From a virus, in IMG/VR virus record IMGVR_UViG_3300026521_000053, positions 1-22,197 of that record: DNA of 22,197 nucleotides, one strand, 5' to 3'. The position numbers and the translations under genes are program-made. The notes under the pieces are model-generated. The model was given only the letters and a program-made list of their open reading frames with translations, ran no database searches and was not told where the DNA came from. Of the stretch, positions 6,027 to 16,548 are shown in pieces (positions within the stretch are counted from its first letter, which is position 1; the number at the start of each line of letters is the position of its first letter).

Positions 6027-6788
6027 ATGGAAAAGATTACAGTAATAAATAAAGAGGTGTTAAAAAAATTAAATACTTGTGAAGATGGTATACGTTTTTT
6101 TACACGCAATATAGGAGAATTATCTGTAGAGAAATTAAAACTAGTAAATGGTGATTATAAAAAATATGTGAGATGGTTAAAAAATGCTATTGATAATTAT
6201 AACGATAATCTTAATGAGTCACTTATAAAAGAGTTTGAGCACATAGATTTAGGAGATTGTAAATGGGGGGAATACACCAAAGATAAATGTGGTAATATAT
6301 TAAAATACAAAAATAGTGATGGCTACTGGAGTGATTATACTAGAGATAAAAATGGTAAAATATTGTCATTTAAAAATAGTAACGGTGTTTCATACGAATG
6401 TACGAGGGATAAACACGGTAACGTATTAACATATAAAGATAGTAGTGGTTATTCGTGCGAATACACCAGAGATAAATATGGTAATAAATTATCTTATAAA
6501 GACAATGAAGGTTACTGGACTGAATACACCAGAGATAAATATGGTAATGAATTAACACGTAAAGACAATGAAGGTCACTGGACTGAATACACTAGAGATA
6601 AATTTGGTAATGAACTAACATTTAAAAATAGTAATGGTGATTGGAGTGAATATACTAGATGTGAAATAGGTAATATACTGACTCATAAAGATAATAGTGG
6701 TGTGAATATAACATATGAATACGAGCATACTAAAGAGTATTTTAAAATGTATAAAAATGATAAGTTAATCTTAACAGTATTTAAATAA
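6027..6788 (+). CDS. RHS-like 21-residue repeat protein, 7 repeats (paralogue 1)
   Basis: Member of a three-gene family in this window. The 253 residues divide exactly into an 88-residue head (TVINKEVLKKL...CEDGIRFFTRN...), seven 21-residue repeats and an 18-residue tail (KEYFKMYKNDK...). The repeat has the pattern W/Y-x-E-Y-T-R-D-K-x-G-N-x-L-x-x-K-N/D-x-x-G, like a short RHS/YD or MORN-type beta-hairpin repeat, so a beta-solenoid or fibre-like fold is likely. The last repeat has drifted (TRCEIGNILTHK). No catalytic motif, signal peptide or membrane segment is visible. The ATG has an AAAGGA site. Role unknown; virion decoration, host interaction or immune evasion are possible but unsupported. 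Confidence 0.85.
   Translation: MEKITVINKEVLKKLNTCEDGIRFFTRNIGELSVEKLKLVNGDYKKYVRWLKNAIDNYNDNLNESLIKEFEHIDLGDCKWGEYTKDKCGNILKYKNSDGYWSDYTRDKNGKILSFKNSNGVSYECTRDKHGNVLTYKDSSGYSCEYTRDKYGNKLSYKDNEGYWTEYTRDKYGNELTRKDNEGHWTEYTRDKFGNELTFKNSNGDWSEYTRCEIGNILTHKDNSGVNITYEYEHTKEYFKMYKNDKLILTVFK
6291..6731 (+). repeat. Seven tandem 63-bp coding repeats
   Basis: Codon 89 onward of paralogue 1 is seven 63-bp units, each starting at a Gly-Asn/Lys-x-Leu step. Units are diverged. The stretch 6309-6397 is identical to 14040-14128 in paralogue 3. Confidence 0.85.
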
Positions 6789-6843
6789 AAAGGATGCAGA
6801 TGAGATTACTGGTGCATGTGTTAATTGGTATGAAAATAATGTA

Positions 6844-6972
6844 ATGCAAATTAACGAATATTTAAAAAGAAAAAACATGACACATAACAGTGACGATGTT
6901 TATGCTCGTGAGAAAATATTACATAAAGACTTGATAGAAAATTACGATTACTCAGAATTTAATTCTGAGTAA
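6844..6972 (+). pseudogene. Small ORF (42 codons) whose reading frame extends upstream without a start; possible frameshift remnant
   Basis: From ATG 6844 the frame reads MQINEYLKRKNMTHNSDD and onward to TAA at 6970. The same frame is open upstream to 6775 with protein-like composition (DADEITGACVNWYENN) but has no start codon. An AAAAGG site with ATGs at 6794 and 6800 sits just upstream in another frame that stops after 14 to 16 codons. One inserted or lost base would join these into a roughly 58-residue protein, so this is either a decayed small gene or a short gene starting at 6844 without a good ribosome site. No family recognised. Confidence 0.35.
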
Positions 6973-6979
6973 TTTTTTT
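6950..6979 (+). terminator. Rho-independent terminator
   Basis: ACTCAGAATT (6950-6959) and AATTCTGAGT (6961-6970) form an inverted repeat followed by AATTTTTTT. It overlaps the end of the 42-codon ORF and separates the repeat gene from the RNAP beta' gene. Confidence 0.75.
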
Positions 6980-7007
6980 CTTCTTTGTGGGTGTATTTAA
7001 TTTTAAC

Positions 7008-7025
7008 AACATATTATTAATATGT
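7008..7025 (+). promoter_or_regulatory. Phage promoter-like AT element, copy 2
   Basis: AACATATTATTAATATGT, 22 bases before the ATG of the RNAP beta' gene and directly after a terminator. Same family as the other copies, with the ATATTATTAATAT core intact. Confidence 0.55.
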
Positions 7026-7047
7026 AATCAAACATAAAAGGAGAAAC

Positions 7048-8263
7048 ATGCCAACGATAATGACCACAAAAAACTTAGATGATTATTACCATAGTACATC
7101 TAAACATATTGTGTTAAATCAGTTAAAATATATAGAGGTAGATGCTAGTAAATTATCAGAAGCATTATACACAAAGTATAATGAAGAAATTAGTTTAATA
7201 CCGTCATGCGAACAAGGTTGTACCAAAGGTGCATGGAAATTAGGAAAACTATGTCCTGTATGTGGTACTGAAATTACAAATGAATTTAATAACATTGATT
7301 CAGTGTTATGGATAGAAAAGTTTAGTAATGATTTACCTTTATTAAATCCATATTATTGGGGTAAGTTTAGAAAGTTATTTAAAAATAATATAGACGGAGT
7401 AAGATGGTTAACTGACACTACATATAACCCACCAGGTATACCACCCATACTATTTAACTTGGCTGGTCTTATGAATGGTAGAGGTTATAAAAAGTTTATA
7501 GATAACATACCTAGGATATTAACGCATTTAAAAAACAACAGTATCTTTAGATATAACAATAAACTTGGTAAAATTGAAGCTCTATTAAAAGAGTATAAAA
7601 AGGATAAAGATAAATTATTTAGTAGATATGTATCTTTACCTAATAAAAGATTATTTGTAATGGAGATGACAAATAAAGGGAATTATACTAGCAGTATGTT
7701 AGCCGATGTAATTGATGTGGCTTTATATAGTATTAAGTTAGCTAGTCTAGATCCAAATACTAAAAAAGTAGAAAATGGTGTAGGTAATATTTTAAGTAAA
7801 TTAAGTATATTACCAGAAACATACATAAGGGAAAAACTAGCTAAGAAACCAGGTATAATCAGAAAGAACATATATGGTACTCGGAGTCACTTTACATTCA
7901 GATGTGTAATATCATCTTTACCTAGTTATAAAGATTATGATACTATTGAAGTACCGTGGAAAATATTATGTAGTGCGTTTAGACCACATGTGTTAAACAA
8001 GTTACTTAAAATGGGGTATAAATATAAAGATGCTAATGCGTTAATATACAAATCAATATCTAAGTATGACCCAGTGATAGATGCTATTGGAAAGGAACTG
8101 ATAGCTGAAAATAAAGAGAAAGGAATACCTGTCTTATTTCACAGGAATCCATCCCTAAAACAAGGTAGTATACAATTAGTATACATAACAAAATTTAAAT
8201 CAAATATGGATGATGAAACTATTAGTGCTAGTATGCTAATAATTAAGTCACCCAATGGCGACT
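7048..8263 (+). CDS. RNAP beta'-like subunit, N-terminal part: exon 1
   Basis: First exon of the beta' N-terminal subunit. Residues 54-72 (CEQGC...LCPVCG) are the beta' zinc ribbon with four cysteines. Residues 277-288 (GTRSHFTFRCVI) match GKRVDYSGRSVI. Residues 362-378 (VLFHRNPSLKQGSIQLV) match VLLNRAPTLHRLGIQ. The next expected motif is NADFDGD, and the exon ends exactly inside it: N403-G404-D405 plus the first T of the Phe codon. The unspliced frame would run on to a stop at 8278-8280, adding a meaningless five-residue tail (LSYIQ) and losing the catalytic aspartates. The ATG at 7048 has an AAAAGGAG ribosome site. The spliced protein is 481 residues and would pair with separately encoded beta and beta' C-terminal parts, as in phiKZ-like phages. 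Confidence 0.9.
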
Positions 8264-8298
8264 TGTCTTATATACAGTAGTTTTAAAGGTGTGTTAGA

Positions 8299-8317
8299 GG
8301 TACCTGTGAGGAGGTAC
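8299..8317 (+). promoter_or_regulatory. Hairpin over the ribosome site of the intron ORF
   Basis: GTACCT (8300-8305) pairs with AGGTAC (8312-8317) across a six-base loop. The strong Shine-Dalgarno GAGGAGG (8308-8314) lies in the loop and right arm, four bases before ATG 8319. Such sequestration would silence the intron ORF on long transcripts, as is known for T4 I-TevI. Confidence 0.5.
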
Positions 8318-8318
8318 A

Positions 8319-8510
8319 ATGAAAAAAGTAAAGATAGCTTATGACACGTTCATAAAGAAAGCTAAAGAGGTTAACGGTGATTTATGTAAGTATCCTGGCG
8401 AGGATACGTTTAACAAATATCAGAATGAACATTTTAGAGTACCAATTATATGTCCAGTGCATGGAGAGTTTTTACAAAACCCAAGAATGCATGCATATAA
8501 TAAAATTTAA
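8319..8510 (+). pseudogene. Truncated homing-endonuclease-type ORF inside intron 1
   Basis: 63 residues. The pattern Y-x-x-F-I-x-K-A-K-x-V-N-G-D, then VPIICPVHGEFLQNP, is the short DNA-binding module often found in phage homing endonucleases and intron-encoded proteins (FIxKAxxVHGDKYDYS...IxCPxHGxFxQxPxxH). In intact proteins the module continues with a G-x-G-C-P-x-C step and a nuclease domain. Here a TAA follows MHAYNKI and neither other frame continues the motif, so the gene is an eroded remnant without a visible nuclease domain. The start is clear, with GAGGAGG four bases upstream. It may still make a small DNA-binding peptide, but it should not be able to mobilise the intron alone. Confidence 0.7.
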
Positions 8511-9091
8511 ACCTACCTCAAAACACAACTACAAATGATGTTAAAGAATATTTAACATTTAAATAATTACTATATATAGTAGAATGGGTCCTTCATACGG
8601 TGACGTATGTCGAAGAATCTTTCTAATAAAGAGATGTATTATTAATAGCATCTCACAGGGACTCTTAAAGCTTAAAGATACTACTTAATAGTTGGAAACA
8701 ATTATTAATACCGCATTCATAATGGAGATATGTGGCATAGTGACAACTCTTTAAGATAGCATGCAGTAGCATGTGTTATATGAAATATAAATACACCTAG
8801 TCTTTCTAACCAAAATGATAGTAGATATTTATAGATTATGTAACGTAGAGAATCTGTAGCGAAGTACCTTAAACAGTGAAAACTATCTAACATAGTTAGA
8901 GTGTATGCGCTCAACGACTATCCCGCCAGGGAGTAGGGCTCAAGTGAGTGGATGTCGATCCTTAAATCGAAACGGAAGAGGTCTCTTTAATATGGTATTA
9001 TAGAGATCATGATATAGTCTAGCCTGTAGTGAAAGCTATAGAAGTTCATGGGAGAACTGGTATGGTGTAACGAACCATATTGACTGTTGCG

Positions 9092-9102
9092 TTGATGGTG
9101 AT
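9092..9102 (+). CDS. RNAP beta' micro-exon 2 (11 nt) encoding F-D-G-D
   Basis: TTGATGGTGAT between the two introns. Joined to the T of exon 1 it completes Phe (TTT) and then reads GAT GGT GAT, so it supplies two of the three aspartates of the DFDGD magnesium site. It is preceded by G9091 (last base of intron 1) and ends in T9102, which suits a group I 5' splice site. Without splicing, the frame would reach a stop at AAA CAA TAA. Only this exact placement restores N-G-D-F-D-G-D-E-M-N in frame. Confidence 0.8.
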
Positions 9103-9583
9103 AAACAATAATTTTAAATTATTAAATGTCCGTTATAGAAGAAATTCTATAATGAAAACTTTCTAATTGACGGGGACGCCGTAAAGATGTGTGCACTAAC
9201 CAGACCGCAGTAATGTGAGGATGAAGAGTCTGGGGCTTAGCTAACTACTAAGGTATAGTAAAAGACATACATATGGTATTGAGTTACCAGCATTGATGAT
9301 AGTATATAGGAGTACAATATCCTGTAAAAACATAACATGGTGTAATTGGCAATCCGCAGCGAAGTATCCCTAGTGGATATGTGTTCAACGACCAAGGGTT
9401 TACCACCCTGTAGGGCTCAAGTGAGTGGGTGTAGAATCCCTTAAATCGAAATGTTAGTGTCCTAGCTTACTATAACGATATTGTAGTCGTGTAAGAAGGA
9501 ATTGATATGGTCTCGACTTCTAGAGGAAACCTAGAGAAGTTCATAAGAGAACTGCATGGATTAACGACCTATGTGAAGACACG
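9103..9583 (+). ncRNA. Group I intron 2 (td-like, 481 nt) in the RNAP beta' gene
   Basis: Second group I intron, 11 nt downstream of the first and related to it. AATCCGCAGCGAAGTA (9351-9366) differs from intron 1 at two positions. TAGGGCTCAAGTGAGTGG (9411-9428) is identical to 8934-8951. P7 is GACCA (9390-9394) with TGGTC (9508-9512), a compensatory change from GACTA/TAGTC. P9 is CTTCTAG/CTAGAGAAG. The final hairpin GCATGG-ATTAACGA-CCTATGT resembles the td 3' end. The intron ends in G9583. It has no ORF. The first 180 nt form extra hairpins (for example TTATAGAA-GAAA-TTCTATAA and CCAGAC...GTCTGG). A likely guide is GTTACCA (9283-9289), which pairs with exon TGGTGAT and places a U-G pair at the splice site. 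Confidence 0.88.
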
Positions 9584-9802
9584 GAAATGAACTGTATATT
9601 ACTTATAGATAACTGGATGGTGGATAAAGCTAAAAACTTATCACCACACCATAATATCGTAGATGTAGGATATTATAAAATAAATAAAAATTTATACTTG
9701 TCTCCTACTACAGTATTAAACATAAGTAATTACATAATGAGTGATGATGAAGAAGAAGACCCTGAGTGTCCTATCTATCAAGAACTTTTGGATTTGAAAT
9801 AA
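9584..9802 (+). CDS. RNAP beta'-like subunit, N-terminal part: exon 3
   Basis: Starts with GAA ATG AAC (E-M-N), completing the NGDFDGDEMN signature when joined to the upstream exons, and continues CILLIDNWMVDKAKNLSPHH to a TAA at 9800-9802. The ATG at 9587 could be misread as a gene start, but it has no ribosome site and the protein resembles the stretch after DFDGD in beta'. The subunit ends about 70 residues after the catalytic motif with an acidic tail (MSDDEEEDPE), consistent with a beta' split after the active site. The beta' C-terminal part is not in this window. Total spliced CDS is 1216 + 11 + 219 = 1446 nt, an exact 482 codons including the stop. Confidence 0.88.
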   Translation, partial: EMNCILLIDNWMVDKAKNLSPHHNIVDVGYYKINKNLYLSPTTVLNISNYIMSDDEEEDPECPIYQELLDLK

Positions 9803-9810
9803 TTTTTGTT

Positions 9811-9828
9811 TATATATTATTAATATGA
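9811..9828 (+). promoter_or_regulatory. Phage promoter-like AT element, copy 3 (before a gene-free stretch)
   Basis: TATATATTATTAATATGA. Unlike the other copies it has no start codon 19 to 28 bases downstream, which supports transcription of a non-coding RNA from here. Confidence 0.55.
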
Positions 9829-10088
9829 AGGGTGTAGATTAAAAAGAAAAATAATTTACTGAAAATTGGTATATCTATACTTGCAATTTTATTGCTATGA
9901 TTTGTAGTGTGTATCATCCCATACTTGGGGCCTTGCATATAGATAACCAAACCCTCAGATCCGTTTTGTGTTTACTATAGCGTGTATGTTTATACATGCT
10001 AATGATCTCTGCTATAGCACTTCCTATGCAACGCTGGGATCATTTTCTAAACATCCTAGGCCCTCTGTGGCCTTGTTGATGTTTTTTT
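9827..10088 (+). ncRNA. Putative structured non-coding RNA (about 260 nt), class unknown
   Basis: Gene-free stretch bounded by a promoter-like element and a terminator, visibly less AT-rich than its surroundings. Nested pairings build a long rod: ATCCCA (9916-9921) with TGGGAT (10035-10040), TTGCATA (9933-9939) with TATGCAA (10025-10031), CTATAGC (9975-9981) with GCTATAG (10011-10017), and an apical GTGTA/TACAT hairpin. The outline, with a closing stem, internal bubbles and an apical stem, recalls 6S-type RNAs but I cannot assign it. Alternative: a decayed small membrane-protein gene, since one frame from 9838 reads KNNLLKIGISILAILLL, then TGA, then FVVCIIPYLGPCI, but it has no ATG and TGA is a stop elsewhere here. 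Confidence 0.5.
10050..10088 (+). terminator. Rho-independent terminator of the putative RNA
   Basis: AACATC (10050-10055) with GATGTT (10078-10083) and inner AGGCC (10058-10062) with GGCCT (10069-10073), followed by seven T (10082-10088). Confidence 0.75.
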
Positions 10089-10122
10089 GTTTTGTGTGCT
10101 GTTAAAAACTTTGTAGATTACT

Positions 10123-10154
10123 GATATGACTGTGGATGCTGCCACAGTCATATC
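10123..10154 (+). terminator. Second perfect 13-bp hairpin in the same gap
   Basis: GATATGACTGTGG (10123-10135) pairs with CCACAGTCATATC (10142-10154); a T-rich tract (TCTCTATTTATTTTT) follows. It insulates the next promoter element 22 bases downstream. Confidence 0.7.
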
Positions 10155-10176
10155 TGTGTCTCTATTTATTTTTATA

Positions 10177-10194
10177 TACATATTATTAAGATAG
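10177..10194 (+). promoter_or_regulatory. Phage promoter-like AT element, copy 4
   Basis: TACATATTATTAAGATAG, 26 bases before the ATG at 10221. Two substitutions from the consensus. Confidence 0.5.
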
Positions 10195-10220
10195 TAAAAC
10201 AAAAGATAAAAGGATCTAAA

Positions 10221-11108
10221 ATGGATAAAATTACTGTAATAAATAAAGAGATATTAAAACAGTTAGGTGCATGTCAGGATGGCATAGATTTCTTTACTAG
10301 AAATATAGTAGAGATATCTATAGATAAATTAGACTTGGTAGATGGTGATTATGAGGGATATGTAGAGTGGTTAAGACACAGTATATCAAATTATAATTCT
10401 TGTAAAATTAAACCACCTGTAAAAGAGTTTGAACGTGTATATAATTTAGACGGTAGTTGGAAAGAAATTACTAGGGATAAATTTGGTTATATATTAAAAT
10501 ATAAAGACAGTACAGGTTTTTGGAAAGAATTTAATAGGGATAAATTTGGTTATGAACTATCTTATAAAGATAATACTCATGTGAAATACGAGTACACTAG
10601 AGATGAAGATGGTAACATATTAACGTATAAAAATAGTGATGGTGGTTGGTACGAATACACTAGAGATAGATTTGGTAATGAGCTATCTTATAAAGATAGT
10701 AGTGGTAATTGGAAAGAATTTACTAGGGATAAATTTGGTAATGAGCTATCTTATAAAGATAGTAGTGGTAATTGGAAAGAAATTACTAGGGATAAATTTG
10801 GTTATATATTAAAATATAGAGACAGTACAGGTTTTTCATACGAGTATACTAGAGATAAATATGGTAATGAATTATCTTATAAAAATAGTAATGGTAATTG
10901 GAGTGAGTATACTAGAGATGAAAATGGTAATGAATTACATTATAAAAATAGTAGTGGTAATTGGAGTGAGTATACTAGAGATGAAAATGGTAACATATTA
11001 ACGTATAAAAATAGTGATGGTGAATATATAACATATAAATACGAGCATACTAAGGAATACTTTAAAATGTATAAAAATGATAATTTAATCTTAACAGTAT
11101 TTAAATAA
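10221..11108 (+). CDS. RHS-like 21-residue repeat protein, 9 repeats (paralogue 2)
   Basis: Longest of the three paralogues at 295 residues: the same 88-residue head (TVINKEILKQLGACQDGIDFFTRN), nine 21-residue repeats and the same 18-residue tail ending LILTVFK. The repeat keeps E-Y/F-T-R-D-K/E-x-G-N/Y-x-L-x-Y-K-D/N-S-x-G. Repeats 4 and 5 are almost identical at the DNA level (63-bp period from 10674), a sign of recent duplication. Repeats 7-9 use DENGN variants shared with paralogue 3. The ATG has an AAAAGGA site eight bases upstream. No enzyme motif, signal peptide or membrane segment. It is followed by the 142-residue unknown after 11 bases, so the two are probably co-transcribed. Function unknown. 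Confidence 0.85.
   Translation: MDKITVINKEILKQLGACQDGIDFFTRNIVEISIDKLDLVDGDYEGYVEWLRHSISNYNSCKIKPPVKEFERVYNLDGSWKEITRDKFGYILKYKDSTGFWKEFNRDKFGYELSYKDNTHVKYEYTRDEDGNILTYKNSDGGWYEYTRDRFGNELSYKDSSGNWKEFTRDKFGNELSYKDSSGNWKEITRDKFGYILKYRDSTGFSYEYTRDKYGNELSYKNSNGNWSEYTRDENGNELHYKNSSGNWSEYTRDENGNILTYKNSDGEYITYKYEHTKEYFKMYKNDNLILTVFK
10485..11051 (+). repeat. Nine tandem 63-bp coding repeats
   Basis: Starts at codon 89, as in the other two paralogues. Units beginning at 10674 and 10737 are near-identical. 10911-10991 is identical to 14133-14213 in paralogue 3. Confidence 0.85.
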
Positions 11109-11119
11109 AAGGATTAGAT

Positions 11120-11548
11120 GTGGAACATATTGATATAGAAATTATAAACAGACAAGATTGTTTAATTATTAGAATAAAATATGATAACATAGTAGCATTA
11201 TCATTTAACTATGATTTAAATACACACGACTTAGAATTAGCTTCACATACTTATATGTATAAAGATAAAACACAACATATAATACGTTTATATACGTATG
11301 ACGGAGGTGATGTAAATGTTTATAAACATATACTTAGTTATTTTATCAATGAAGTAATTAATAAACATGAACAAATAATTAATGACATAGATTATATATA
11401 TGATGTGTATATAGATGAACTTTATAGTAATTTAAACAATATTTTAAACTATAAAACAAATAAATACACATTAATAAAACATGAAGTAATTAATAAAACT
11501 AACTATAAGACGACAACCACATACAAAATAAGGAAAATCAATGAATGA
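11120..11548 (+). CDS. Unrecognised 142-residue protein with GTG start
   Basis: No family recognised. The start is GTG at 11120, six bases after an AAAGGA site; the overlapping ATG at 11118 is in another frame and stops after six codons. The protein is acidic and Tyr/Asn/Ile-rich, beta-like at the N-terminus (DIEIINRQDCLIIRIKYDN) and helical in the middle, with a basic C-terminus. No signal peptide or membrane segment. It ends in TGA at 11546-11548, overlapping the dCMP deaminase start by eight bases, so translation of the two is probably coupled. The TGA confirms that this codon is a stop in this genome. Confidence 0.7.
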   Translation: MEHIDIEIINRQDCLIIRIKYDNIVALSFNYDLNTHDLELASHTYMYKDKTQHIIRLYTYDGGDVNVYKHILSYFINEVINKHEQIINDIDYIYDVYIDELYSNLNNILNYKTNKYTLIKHEVINKTNYKTTTTYKIRKINE

Positions 11549-12089
11549 AATTAAACCAACTATCGTAGATGAAATAATGTTAAATGTAGCTGTAGAGATG
11601 TCTAAATTAAGCAAATGTAAAAAACAACAAGTAGGGTGCTTGTTTGTTAAGAATGGTAGAATATTATCTACTGGTGTAAATGGTACTGTGTCAGATACAT
11701 GTAATGGTTGTGAGACAGTGGAGTACACATGTAGTGTTTGTGACGAAATTACATTATTAGATAATGATGTAGATGTAAGAGAATATTGTTTATGTAAATG
11801 CGGTCATATAGATAATATTGATTTTAATAAAAATACTAAATATGTGACTAAAGATAATGTATTACATGCTGAAGAGAATGCTATTTTAAATGCTGCTAAA
11901 GAAGGAATCTCTTTAAAAGGATGTACCGTATACATTACATTATCACCGTGTATTAAATGCGCCAGAATGATAGCTGAGCTAGGCACTACTTGCGTGGTGT
12001 ATAAAAATAAATATAGAAATACCGCTGGTTTAGAACTTTTAAAAAGTAAAGGTATTCAAATAGTGAAAGGAAATAATAATGAAAAATAA
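11541..12089 (+). CDS. dCMP deaminase family protein (zinc-dependent cytidine/deoxycytidylate deaminase)
   Basis: Predicted to deaminate dCMP to dUMP, feeding phage dTMP synthesis. The catalytic zinc site is complete: H109-A-E111 (VLHAEENA) with E111 as the proton shuttle, and C137 and C140 in SPCIKC. The N-terminal VGCLFVKNGRILSTGVNGT matches the substrate-side block of the dCMP deaminase branch. At 182 residues it is slightly long. The extra length is a Cys-rich insert at residues 54-87 (C-x2-C, C-x2-C, then C-x-C-x-C), which looks like an added zinc ribbon. It overlaps the genes on both sides (8 nt upstream, 11 nt downstream), so it sits in a tight operon. Exact substrate (dCMP or another cytosine nucleotide) is inferred from the family. 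Confidence 0.88.
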   Translation: MNEIKPTIVDEIMLNVAVEMSKLSKCKKQQVGCLFVKNGRILSTGVNGTVSDTCNGCETVEYTCSVCDEITLLDNDVDVREYCLCKCGHIDNIDFNKNTKYVTKDNVLHAEENAILNAAKEGISLKGCTVYITLSPCIKCARMIAELGTTCVVYKNKYRNTAGLELLKSKGIQIVKGNNNEK

Positions 12090-12348
12090 AACAAGTAAAT
12101 ATGTATTACCAGATGATGTAACGCCATCTGAATATACAATATCTATACCTAATAAAAAACCAAAAATACTCATAACCGATGATTTAGAAGAAGAACTTTC
12201 TGAATATTACATTCTATTTGCTGGAATAAAATATTATCCTAATAAAGACAAAACACCCAGTGCTTTTTTTAGATTTATGACTAAACATTTACTAGGTTTG
12301 AAATGGGGTAAAGATAGTAAAGAAGAAGATATAGATACACCAAAATAG
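12079..12348 (+). CDS. Unrecognised 89-residue protein
   Basis: Small soluble protein, no family recognised. It starts within the last 11 bases of the dCMP deaminase gene (GAAAGGAAATAATAATG gives a good ribosome site), so it is translationally linked to it. A Pro/Thr/Lys-rich N-terminus is followed by an acidic patch (DDLEEELSEYY) and a short amphipathic helix (SAFFRFMTKHLLGLKWG). The stop TAG lies inside the terminator hairpin. A nucleotide-metabolism accessory role is possible from position only. Confidence 0.65.
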   Translation: MKNKTSKYVLPDDVTPSEYTISIPNKKPKILITDDLEEELSEYYILFAGIKYYPNKDKTPSAFFRFMTKHLLGLKWGKDSKEEDIDTPK

Positions 12349-12373
12349 GTGTATCTATATTATTTATTTTTTT
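12329..12373 (+). terminator. Strong terminator between convergent genes
   Basis: ATATAGATACACC (12329-12341) pairs perfectly with GGTGTATCTATAT (12348-12360), followed by TATTTATTTTTTT. It terminates the deaminase operon; the same hairpin sits just after the stop of the minus-strand gene but has no T-run in that direction. Confidence 0.8.
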
Positions 12374-13620
12374 AATGCTTTTATGTATATATAAAGAATA
12401 AACATAATAGTAGTAGTGGATAGTATCCATTTAGTTTTTCTACCTGTAGTAATCATAGCTAAATAATAAATATACTTTTTAGCTTCTTTCATATCTTTAT
12501 TTTTTACTTTACTACTAGACCAATAATTTTTAAGTAATAAGATACTCTTAGGTAAATTATTTACATCTGTAATATTTAAGTTTAATCTATTTAAATAATC
12601 AAAGCTTAATATTAAAATATCTTTTAATAATTCGTTATAAGGATCTTTATCATTTTTATATTTTTTAATAGTCACTTTTAATTTATTATGTAATTGATCT
12701 TCACATACATTGTTAATCATGCTAGTTAATATATCCTTATTTGTATTTGGAAACATTTTATCGATTACAATAATTATATCAGTGTCTATAAAATCATTTT
12801 TATTGTATTTTATATTTTGTATTTTATTTATATAATTAAAGGCATCATTATTTACTTCTTTTACTTGTTTCTCATTAGCTTCACCACCTATAAAAGTAGA
12901 GTCTTGTTGTTTGATAATTTCTTTTTCTTCTTTAACTTCTACTAATACACCATATATAGCTATTAGTAAAGATCTATTTTTTGTTTGTATATCTGATATA
13001 ATTCTAGTAGAATCTTCAGTAGTAAATCTTCTTAACCTTTTATTATTAGGATTGTGTTTATCTAGTATAGTTTCTACTCTATAATTAAATACTTCTCCCC
13101 AACTATGTTTCTTTTTAATAATAAATTTATGAGATAAGTGTTCATATACAGTAGTTGCTATATTATTATCAACTTTATAATTAAAATATCTAAAATACAA
13201 ACTACTAAACATTCTATACTGCATAATTAACATTGTCTCTTTAACTATTTTTTCTTTAAAATCTTTAGAAGTAACATTACTATTATAAGCATCTGCAGCT
13301 GAATATGTGAGTATGTTATAAATTACATTACTGGTTACTTTAAAAGATTTATTTATATCTTTTACCTTATAAAACTCTTTTTGTATATCTTTAAAACCTG
13401 GTAAATTATAAACATCGTTAGCTAATTTATCATCGTCATTCTCGCTAAATCTAATAGTATGTGCTCCTACTAAATTACTACCTAAAAATTCTATATATTC
13501 ATCACTTTTATTTATCCACGATAATCTAAAATTTCTAATTCTATTTAAAAAACCACTATCTATATTTATGTTTAATTCACTTTTAAAAAAACTTTTAACA
13601 TCTTTATATTTTTTATCCAT
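12364..13620 (-). CDS. Unrecognised 418-residue protein with C-terminal membrane anchor
   Basis: No family recognised. Long, Lys/Asn/Ile-rich and mainly helical, with a charged C-terminal third. The last 20 or so residues (KWILSTTTIMFILYIYIKAL) form one hydrophobic segment after a basic stretch (GRKTK), which looks like a tail anchor with the bulk in the cytoplasm. The ATG at 13620 is preceded on its strand by an AAAAGGG site. It is the only minus-strand gene between 1 and 17067, convergent with the deaminase operon and divergent from the third repeat gene. A short AT-rich gap (13621-13713) holds its promoter, but no copy of the 18-base element is visible on that strand. Confidence 0.75.
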   Translation of the reverse strand: MDKKYKDVKSFFKSELNINIDSGFLNRIRNFRLSWINKSDEYIEFLGSNLVGAHTIRFSENDDDKLANDVYNLPGFKDIQKEFYKVKDINKSFKVTSNVIYNILTYSAADAYNSNVTSKDFKEKIVKETMLIMQYRMFSSLYFRYFNYKVDNNIATTVYEHLSHKFIIKKKHSWGEVFNYRVETILDKHNPNNKRLRRFTTEDSTRIISDIQTKNRSLLIAIYGVLVEVKEEKEIIKQQDSTFIGGEANEKQVKEVNNDAFNYINKIQNIKYNKNDFIDTDIIIVIDKMFPNTNKDILTSMINNVCEDQLHNKLKVTIKKYKNDKDPYNELLKDILILSFDYLNRLNLNITDVNNLPKSILLLKNYWSSSKVKNKDMKEAKKYIYYLAMITTGRKTKWILSTTTIMFILYIYIKALKK

Positions 13621-13713
13621 TGTACGCCCTTTTGTATTACGTAATCATTTAAATATTTAATTACCGGACATTAGTTAAAAATATTTATTATATAATTTCT
13701 AAACATTTTCATT

Positions 13714-13731
13714 TATATATTATTAATATAG
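13714..13731 (+). promoter_or_regulatory. Phage promoter-like AT element, copy 5 (consensus)
   Basis: TATATATTATTAATATAG, 26 bases before ATG 13758. Matches copy 7 exactly and is taken as the consensus. Confidence 0.65.
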
Positions 13732-13757
13732 TAAAACAAAATATAAAAGGATCTTAA

Positions 13758-14456
13758 ATGAAAAAGATTACGGTAGTAAATAAAGAGGTGTTAAAAAAAC
13801 TGAAAGCATGTGAAGACGGTATACGTTTTTTTGTACGTAATATAGGAGAATTACCTGTAGATAAATTAGACTTGGTAGAAGGTGATTATAAACATTATGT
13901 GGAATGGTTAAAAAATGCTGTTACTGAATATAATAACAAACCGCATAAACCACCTGTAAAAGAGTTTGAACGTGTATATAATTTAGATGGTAGTTGGTTT
14001 GAATTTACTAGGGATAAATTTGGTTATACTTTAACATATAAAAATAGTGATGGCTACTGGAGTGATTATACTAGAGATAAAAATGGTAAAATATTGTCAT
14101 TTAAAAATAGTAACGGTGTTTCATACGAGTACACTAGAGATGAAAATGGTAATGAATTACATTATAAAAATAGTAGTGGTAATTGGAGTGAGTATACTAG
14201 AGATGAAAATGGTGCTGTGTTAACGTATAAAAATAGTGATGATTTTTCATACGAGTACACTAGAGATAAATATGGTAATGAATTAACACGTAAAGACAAT
14301 GAAGGTTATTGGTGCGAATACACTAGAGATAAATTTGGTAATGAATTAACATTTAAAAATAGTAATGGTGATTGGAGTGAATATAAATATGAACACACTA
14401 AGGAATATTTTAAGATGTACGAAAACGATAAACTGATATTAACTGTAATTAAATAA
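13758..14456 (+). CDS. RHS-like 21-residue repeat protein, 6 repeats (paralogue 3, mosaic)
   Basis: Shortest of the three paralogues: 232 residues = 88 + 6 x 21 + 18. The head (TVVNKEVLKKLKACEDGIRFFVRN) begins like paralogue 1, while the segment before the repeats (PPVKEFERVYNLDGSW) matches paralogue 2. The repeats are a patchwork: 14040-14128 is identical to paralogue 1 (89 bp) and 14133-14213 identical to paralogue 2 (81 bp), so recombination between copies has built this gene. One repeat has lost its Gly (NSDDFSYE). Good AAAAGGA site and promoter element upstream. A small helical gene follows 13 bases downstream. Function unknown; the repeat fold is probably a beta-hairpin stack. Confidence 0.85.
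   Translation: MKKITVVNKEVLKKLKACEDGIRFFVRNIGELPVDKLDLVEGDYKHYVEWLKNAVTEYNNKPHKPPVKEFERVYNLDGSWFEFTRDKFGYTLTYKNSDGYWSDYTRDKNGKILSFKNSNGVSYEYTRDENGNELHYKNSSGNWSEYTRDENGAVLTYKNSDDFSYEYTRDKYGNELTRKDNEGYWCEYTRDKFGNELTFKNSNGDWSEYKYEHTKEYFKMYENDKLILTVIK
14022..14399 (+). repeat. Six tandem 63-bp coding repeats
   Basis: Starts at codon 89 of paralogue 3. Contains two blocks (89 bp and 81 bp) identical to different paralogues. Confidence 0.85.
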
Positions 14457-16100: not shown

Positions 16101-16140
16101 ACATGTACAGAAATTTCTGTACATGTGAATCCATTTTTTT
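16101..16140 (+). terminator. Rho-independent terminator (perfect palindrome plus T-run)
   Basis: ACATGTACAGAAA (16101-16113) and its reverse complement (16114-16126) form a 26-base palindrome; seven T follow at 16134-16140. Confidence 0.8.
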
Positions 16141-16145
16141 TCATT

Positions 16146-16163
16146 TATATATTATTAATATAG
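16146..16163 (+). promoter_or_regulatory. Phage promoter-like AT element, copy 7 (consensus)
   Basis: TATATATTATTAATATAG, identical to copy 5 and 28 bases before ATG 16192. Probably drives the 118-residue gene and the lytic transglycosylase. Confidence 0.65.
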
Positions 16164-16191
16164 AAAATTAATTTTTATATTGGAGAAAAAA

Positions 16192-16548
16192 ATGTTAAGT
16201 TTGGATAATAAAGCTGCTATAATTGCAGTGGTAAACAAATTAATAAATTTTAAATTCATGATAGTTGAATTTAAAATATTAAATAAAGTATTGCATATAG
16301 ATGCAATACTAAGAAATAAATTGATATCTTTAGATATCGATCTAGAAACATTGACAAAGAAATATACCCTATTAAATATATTGGAGTATATTTCTGATAA
16401 TGAATACTTTATTTCAAAAAAAGAAATAGAGTATGATGAGTTGTTAAACGTGTTTTATGTAATGATGCCCTTGTTAATAAATATAATTAATACTAATGAT
16501 ATTATTAAGGGAATTAATAAAACATACGATAGGATGAGATATGCTTAA
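16192..16548 (+). CDS. Unrecognised 118-residue protein upstream of the lytic transglycosylase
   Basis: No family recognised. The ATG at 16192 is preferred over an in-frame TTG at 16180, whose bases include the GGAG ribosome site used by the ATG. Mostly helical and Ile/Leu/Asn-rich. A hydrophobic stretch near the C-terminus (LLNVFYVMMPLLINIINT) might be a membrane helix, but it is weak. It overlaps the lytic transglycosylase by eight bases, so the two are translationally coupled. A lysis-accessory (holin-like) role is possible from position only and not supported by topology. Confidence 0.65.
   Translation: MLSLDNKAAIIAVVNKLINFKFMIVEFKILNKVLHIDAILRNKLISLDIDLETLTKKYTLLNILEYISDNEYFISKKEIEYDELLNVFYVMMPLLINIINTNDIIKGINKTYDRMRYA

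Follow-up and report, generated by a model that had tools for sequence, protein, structure and literature searches.

A candidate 3'-UTR noncoding RNA with a dedicated phage promoter behind the beta' RNA polymerase gene of a phiKZ-like jumbo phage

Introduction

To our knowledge, jumbo phages have yielded few noncoding RNAs. The locus considered here raises the question of what is transcribed from a phage promoter that stands directly behind a gene for an RNA polymerase subunit and leads into no open reading frame (ORF). The window (the whole stretch of DNA that was analysed, 22,197 nt, IMG/VR record IMGVR_UViG_3300026521_000053) is a 22-kb, incomplete contig of a phiKZ-like jumbo phage. Its 5' ORF encodes a beta-type subunit of RNA polymerase (phrog_3148), and the ORF at 7048 encodes a gp55-type beta' subunit, as in phiKZ (phrog_2987). 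The terminase also points to the phiKZ-like group.

The beta' gene and its introns

The beta' gene (7048-9802, + strand) is divided into exons at 7048-8263, 9092-9102 and 9584-9802 by two group I introns, which give Rfam RF00028 matches at 8783-9041 (E 7e-9) and 9110-9536 (E 1e-7), each scoring slightly below the gathering threshold. Joining the three exons generates a single open frame of 481 aa and restores the catalytic motif as NGDFDGDEMN; the splice junctions, between 8264 and 9583, are placed by this restored frame. The second exon is an 11-nt mini-exon (TTGATGGTGAT) flanked by both introns and lying inside the catalytic DFDGD (NADFDGD) motif. Since the exons join to one frame, beta' should end at 9802, with the element of interest starting 9 nt past its stop codon, at the promoter at 9811.

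The first of these introns contains a small ORF (8319-8510). The beta' gene is also split by group I introns in phiKZ (L009 among the retrieved loci), in Goslar (as annotated), and in the relatives L013 and L015, the last with two intron matches; the sites lie at 4602-4923 in L009, 8290-8628 in L013, 7247-7895 in L015 and 4203-4579 in L008. In many further relatives the reading frame of beta' stops a few residues past the same catalytic motif, so that introns seem to target this site widely.

A promoter without a gene

At 9811-9826 (+ strand) lies an exact copy of the phage promoter motif TATATATTATTAATAT, followed by a G and matching the phiKZ-type consensus family (PMC7058600, Table 2); the original prediction had called it near-consensus. 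The window has four exact copies, every one on the + strand, where 0.0026 would be expected per strand. Compared with the consensus of phage OBP, the copy at 9811 agrees at 25 of 29 positions, where all positions in the window average 14.1 (sd 2.6). The OBP consensus is listed beside those of N1M2, 201phi2-1, EL and phiKZ, and the OBP promoter is deemed early, early timing there being itself a prediction (PMC7058600). It is from resemblance to this OBP/N1M2/phiKZ family of predicted early promoters that we infer early activity for the promoter at 9811; transcription by a phage polymerase would start just 3' of the motif.

What sets this copy apart is what follows it. The window holds six further near or exact copies, each located 5' of an ORF. 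The same comparison can be made in a sister contig (IMGVR_UViG_3300028534_000030, 59 kb), which overlaps window positions 6432-14277 at 99.3% identity and carries the element unchanged. Of its 14 intergenic promoter copies scoring at least 14/16, 13 lead into an ORF that begins 13-93 nt beyond the motif core; the element's promoter is the only one of the 14 that does not (there is none within 400 nt). The proposed distinction between this promoter and the other copies thus stands. Nor does the unit hold a credible ORF, in line with what had been claimed: no frame overlapping 9827-10088 exceeds 48 aa, and a 27-aa ATG frame at 9897 has no ribosome-binding site visible upstream.

Termination and the next gene

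The promoter-to-terminator stretch 9827-10088 (+ strand) defines the ~260-nt form of the candidate noncoding RNA. It ends in an intrinsic terminator at 10049-10088, an imperfect hairpin (10049-10084) running into seven T residues (10082-10088). The clear terminator of the original prediction is therefore present, although it may not be the real end: a second, perfect 13-bp hairpin with a T-rich tail, of the phage's usual terminator type, follows at 10123-10154 (+ strand) and is probably either a backup or the main terminator. A perfect hairpin of ~13-15 bp closes most units in the window and stands just 5' of the next promoter or gene. Perfect unit-end hairpins of 11-15 bp are found at 2804, 4396, 5943, 6946, 10123, 12328, 14726, 16099, 17045 and 21120, and are probably the usual terminators of this phage. 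The RNA may accordingly end at either hairpin, transcription stopping at 10049-10088 to give ~260 nt or at 10123-10154 to give about 330-340 nt.

The gap between the beta' stop codon and the promoter at 9811 contains no terminator, nor would one fit, and beta' transcripts must consequently traverse the element. On its sequence organization, the element is both the 3' UTR of the beta' mRNA and a separate unit, which would lie wholly inside that 3' UTR and have its terminator in common with beta'. The next gene, at 10221, encodes an RHS-like repeat protein and has its own promoter at 10177-10192 (+ strand; two mismatches), and therefore has no need of the one at 9811. The window contains three paralogous RHS-like repeat proteins (6027-6788, 10221-11108 and 13758-14456) with the same promoter directly 5' of each, and the start of the sister contig also carries a copy.

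Composition and fold

The element is less AT-rich than its surroundings, as originally described, with a GC content of 0.357, the contig averaging 0.265; a GC content at least this high is seen in 4.6% of 263-nt windows, those of the intron region included. Its predicted fold has an energy of -69.8 kcal/mol, which none of 200 shuffled sequences equalled (z-score -3.5 to -3.9). A z-score of -3.5 or lower occurs in 13 of 126 equally long windows and is therefore weak evidence; similar values are common across this AT-rich window, and the z-score was rejected as proof of structure. The lowest absolute folding energies belong to two intron windows and one window that overlaps the element. The strongest folding z-scores in the window (-7 to -9) belong to another region, 16101-16538, covering the start and body of a small ORF at 16180.

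Minimum-free-energy and centroid structures concur on a multi-domain fold, and the single rod that had been proposed does not emerge from it. Instead, a rod is predicted as one part of a 5' three-way-junction domain (9829-9955, + strand), which consists of a closing stem (9829-9833/9951-9955), an A-rich hairpin (9834-9859) and the rod (9866-9950); two predicted hairpins follow on the same strand (9978-10001 and 10002-10043, together 9978-10043), and then the terminator. The only second copy of the element, that in the sister contig, is identical and so offers no covarying positions.

Known RNA families, relatives and possible targets

Searches of the element with Rfam and ARAGORN found no known riboswitch, T-box, tRNA or group I intron, and, with permissive filters and E values of up to 10, no 6S RNA either. 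Exact 18-22-nt probes from the element hit the sister contig alone in IMG/VR and had no match in GTDB genomes; blastn against phages aligned only promoter sequence belonging to the next gene; and a search of genome contigs with the beta' alignment returned no relative. A duplex-energy search for targets at 62 phage gene starts gave best values within the range of shuffled sequences.

Among relatives, 73 loci with beta' genes were retrieved. A covariance model built on the single sequence of the element recovered the identical copy in the sister contig but nothing in the other 49 of 50 relatives' records; against 80 promoter-bearing loci it likewise found nothing besides the sister contig. Most relatives have a short spacer behind a complete beta' gene, and the gene that follows frequently resembles phrog_3254, as judged by eye from translations. 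The spacer is nevertheless variable: short in most, tRNA-bearing in one distant relative, and holding several kb of extra genes in the window.

That distant relative, an AT-rich contig designated L066 (IMGVR_UViG_3300023439_000046), provides the one possible counterpart. Its 357-nt post-beta' spacer holds, in this order, a promoter-like motif (ATATATATTATATG), ~105 nt of noncoding sequence enclosed by an 11-bp stem, genes for tRNA-Met and tRNA-Asn, and a terminator, beyond which the next gene follows. Like the element, the L066 RNA lies directly behind beta', has a promoter-like motif upstream and is noncoding, and it shares with the element three colinear blocks of 9-10 nt: GATAACCAA (window 9942-9950, L066 1441), GTTTTGTGTT (9963-9972, L066 1461) and TTCCTATGCA (10021-10030, L066 1490), all on the + strand of the window, with nearly equal spacing of the first two. 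The exact-block chain totals 29 nt, equalled in 8 of 60,000 shuffled pairs (p about 1e-4), and outranks every other segment from 72 loci, although the runner-up falls short by only a single base. When IMG/VR was scanned for GATAACCAA-N8-15-GTTTTGTG, 34 stretches were found, of which only those of L066 and the sister contig also have the third block; nearly all the others lie in ORFs. In the beta' tree the window stands beside the L066 clade, with moderate support and on a long branch.

Against this, ordinary local alignment of the element with the L066 RNA is not convincing (p about 0.04-0.2), and the L066 RNA differs in its length, its closing stem and the two tRNAs that come after it. The folds do not correspond: no shared structure was found, an L066-like closing stem costing the window RNA 13 kcal/mol, and an L066 covariance model fails to detect the window element. 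Closer kin of L066 (L020, L026 and L050) lack this RNA behind beta'. Homology of the two RNAs is possible on these sequence comparisons, at about even odds.

The region 1402-1668 of L066 is a promoter-driven array directly behind beta', made up of the noncoding RNA, which holds the palindrome CCAAGCTTGG, tRNA-Met(CAT) and tRNA-Asn(GTT). Two weak matches to the L066 model were rejected as chance, one in L249 (a terminator hairpin running into coding sequence) and one in L250 (inside an ORF).

Weighing the explanations

The element is probably an independently transcribed phage noncoding RNA within the beta' 3' UTR. Such an RNA is the simplest way to account for an exact promoter that leads into no gene, for the terminator and for the intron-like composition, and the unit of promoter and noncoding RNA at the equivalent place in L066 counts in its favour; the frequency of comparable z-scores in the window and the lack of gene-start complementarity beyond that of shuffled sequences count against it. 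As a promoter-to-terminator unit without an ORF, the candidate originally put forward is well supported by what can be read from the DNA. The element could be merely a 3' UTR with a spare promoter. It is unlikely, in our judgement, that it has no dedicated RNA function and comprises the beta' 3' UTR and terminator together with the relic of a promoter, in a spacer prone to insertions. The variability of that spacer and the failure to recognise the element in about 50 relatives would suit a relic, but an exact 16-nt promoter is not readily expected to survive as one, and composition and folding energy are like those of the window's introns. The element also lies on the same strand as gene 10221 and 130 nt 5' of it, and might be its untranslated leader, driven by the promoter at 9811 and attenuated by the two hairpins. 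A 10-nt direct repeat (TGGGGCCTTG at 9926, TGTGGCCTTG at 10066) could allow the upstream copy to base-pair with the terminator's 5' arm, possibly switching between that arm and its upstream copy. The repeat is short enough to arise by chance, however, two terminators intervene, no known riboswitch or T-box model matches, and the promoter at 10177 has the usual spacing to the start of the gene; we regard a leader as quite improbable.

6S RNA is a single long hairpin with a closing stem and a large central bubble, which binds RNA polymerase and templates a product RNA. The original prediction raised a 6S-like RNA that would bind and regulate the phage multisubunit RNA polymerase. The position directly behind beta' and the modelled rod within the 5' domain are compatible with this, and a polymerase association is conceivable given that the 180-nt 5'-UTR fragment of phiKZ occurs in RNA polymerase-associated fractions (PMC8545117). 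The element shares with 6S RNA a rod in part of the fold, but there is no Rfam 6S match, the predicted fold is multi-domain without a long closing helix or a single bubbled hairpin, and no such polymerase-adjacent RNA was recognised in about 50 relatives bar the one possible case of L066. Proximity is itself weak evidence for a polymerase function, the post-beta' spacer being short in most relatives. With position as its sole footing, and failing the tests that could be made (Rfam and fold), the 6S-like regulator is unsupported and extremely improbable.

Comparison with known 3'-UTR RNAs

The noncoding-RNA reading has precedents. Some bacterial 3'-UTR small RNAs have their own internal promoter; like them, the element has a promoter past the stop codon and a terminator common with the upstream gene, whereas its promoter is of the phage type. 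Its own promoter past the stop, the shared intrinsic terminator and the absence of an ORF are among the features by which 3'-UTR small RNAs are recognised. In phiKZ, Grad-seq revealed two noncoding RNAs, a PHIKZ298 3'-UTR RNA of ~100 nt and a p40 5'-UTR RNA of ~180 nt, both of them missed by transcription-start mapping; the 3'-UTR RNA, which has no mapped start, is thought to be cut from mRNA (PMC8545117). These precedents make a dedicated phage noncoding RNA plausible. The PHIKZ298 RNA resembles the element in lying in a 3' UTR of a related jumbo phage and ending in a terminator hairpin; the element differs in having its own promoter, in being longer and in standing behind a different gene.

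Implications

Membership of the promoter in its predicted family would have the RNA made early. A stable RNA would then most likely be regulatory in the infected cell, acting through base-pairing or protein binding. That it represents a conserved early noncoding RNA of the beta' 3' UTR, acting on that polymerase or on a two-polymerase switch, is a very distant prospect. The element is a definite candidate jumbo-phage noncoding RNA for testing, and a unit of this kind (a phage promoter, no ORF, a terminator) can be recognised from sequence alone, which provides a simple rule for finding more. If a polymerase-adjacent noncoding RNA should turn out to be conserved, it would open up RNA-based control of jumbo-phage transcription.
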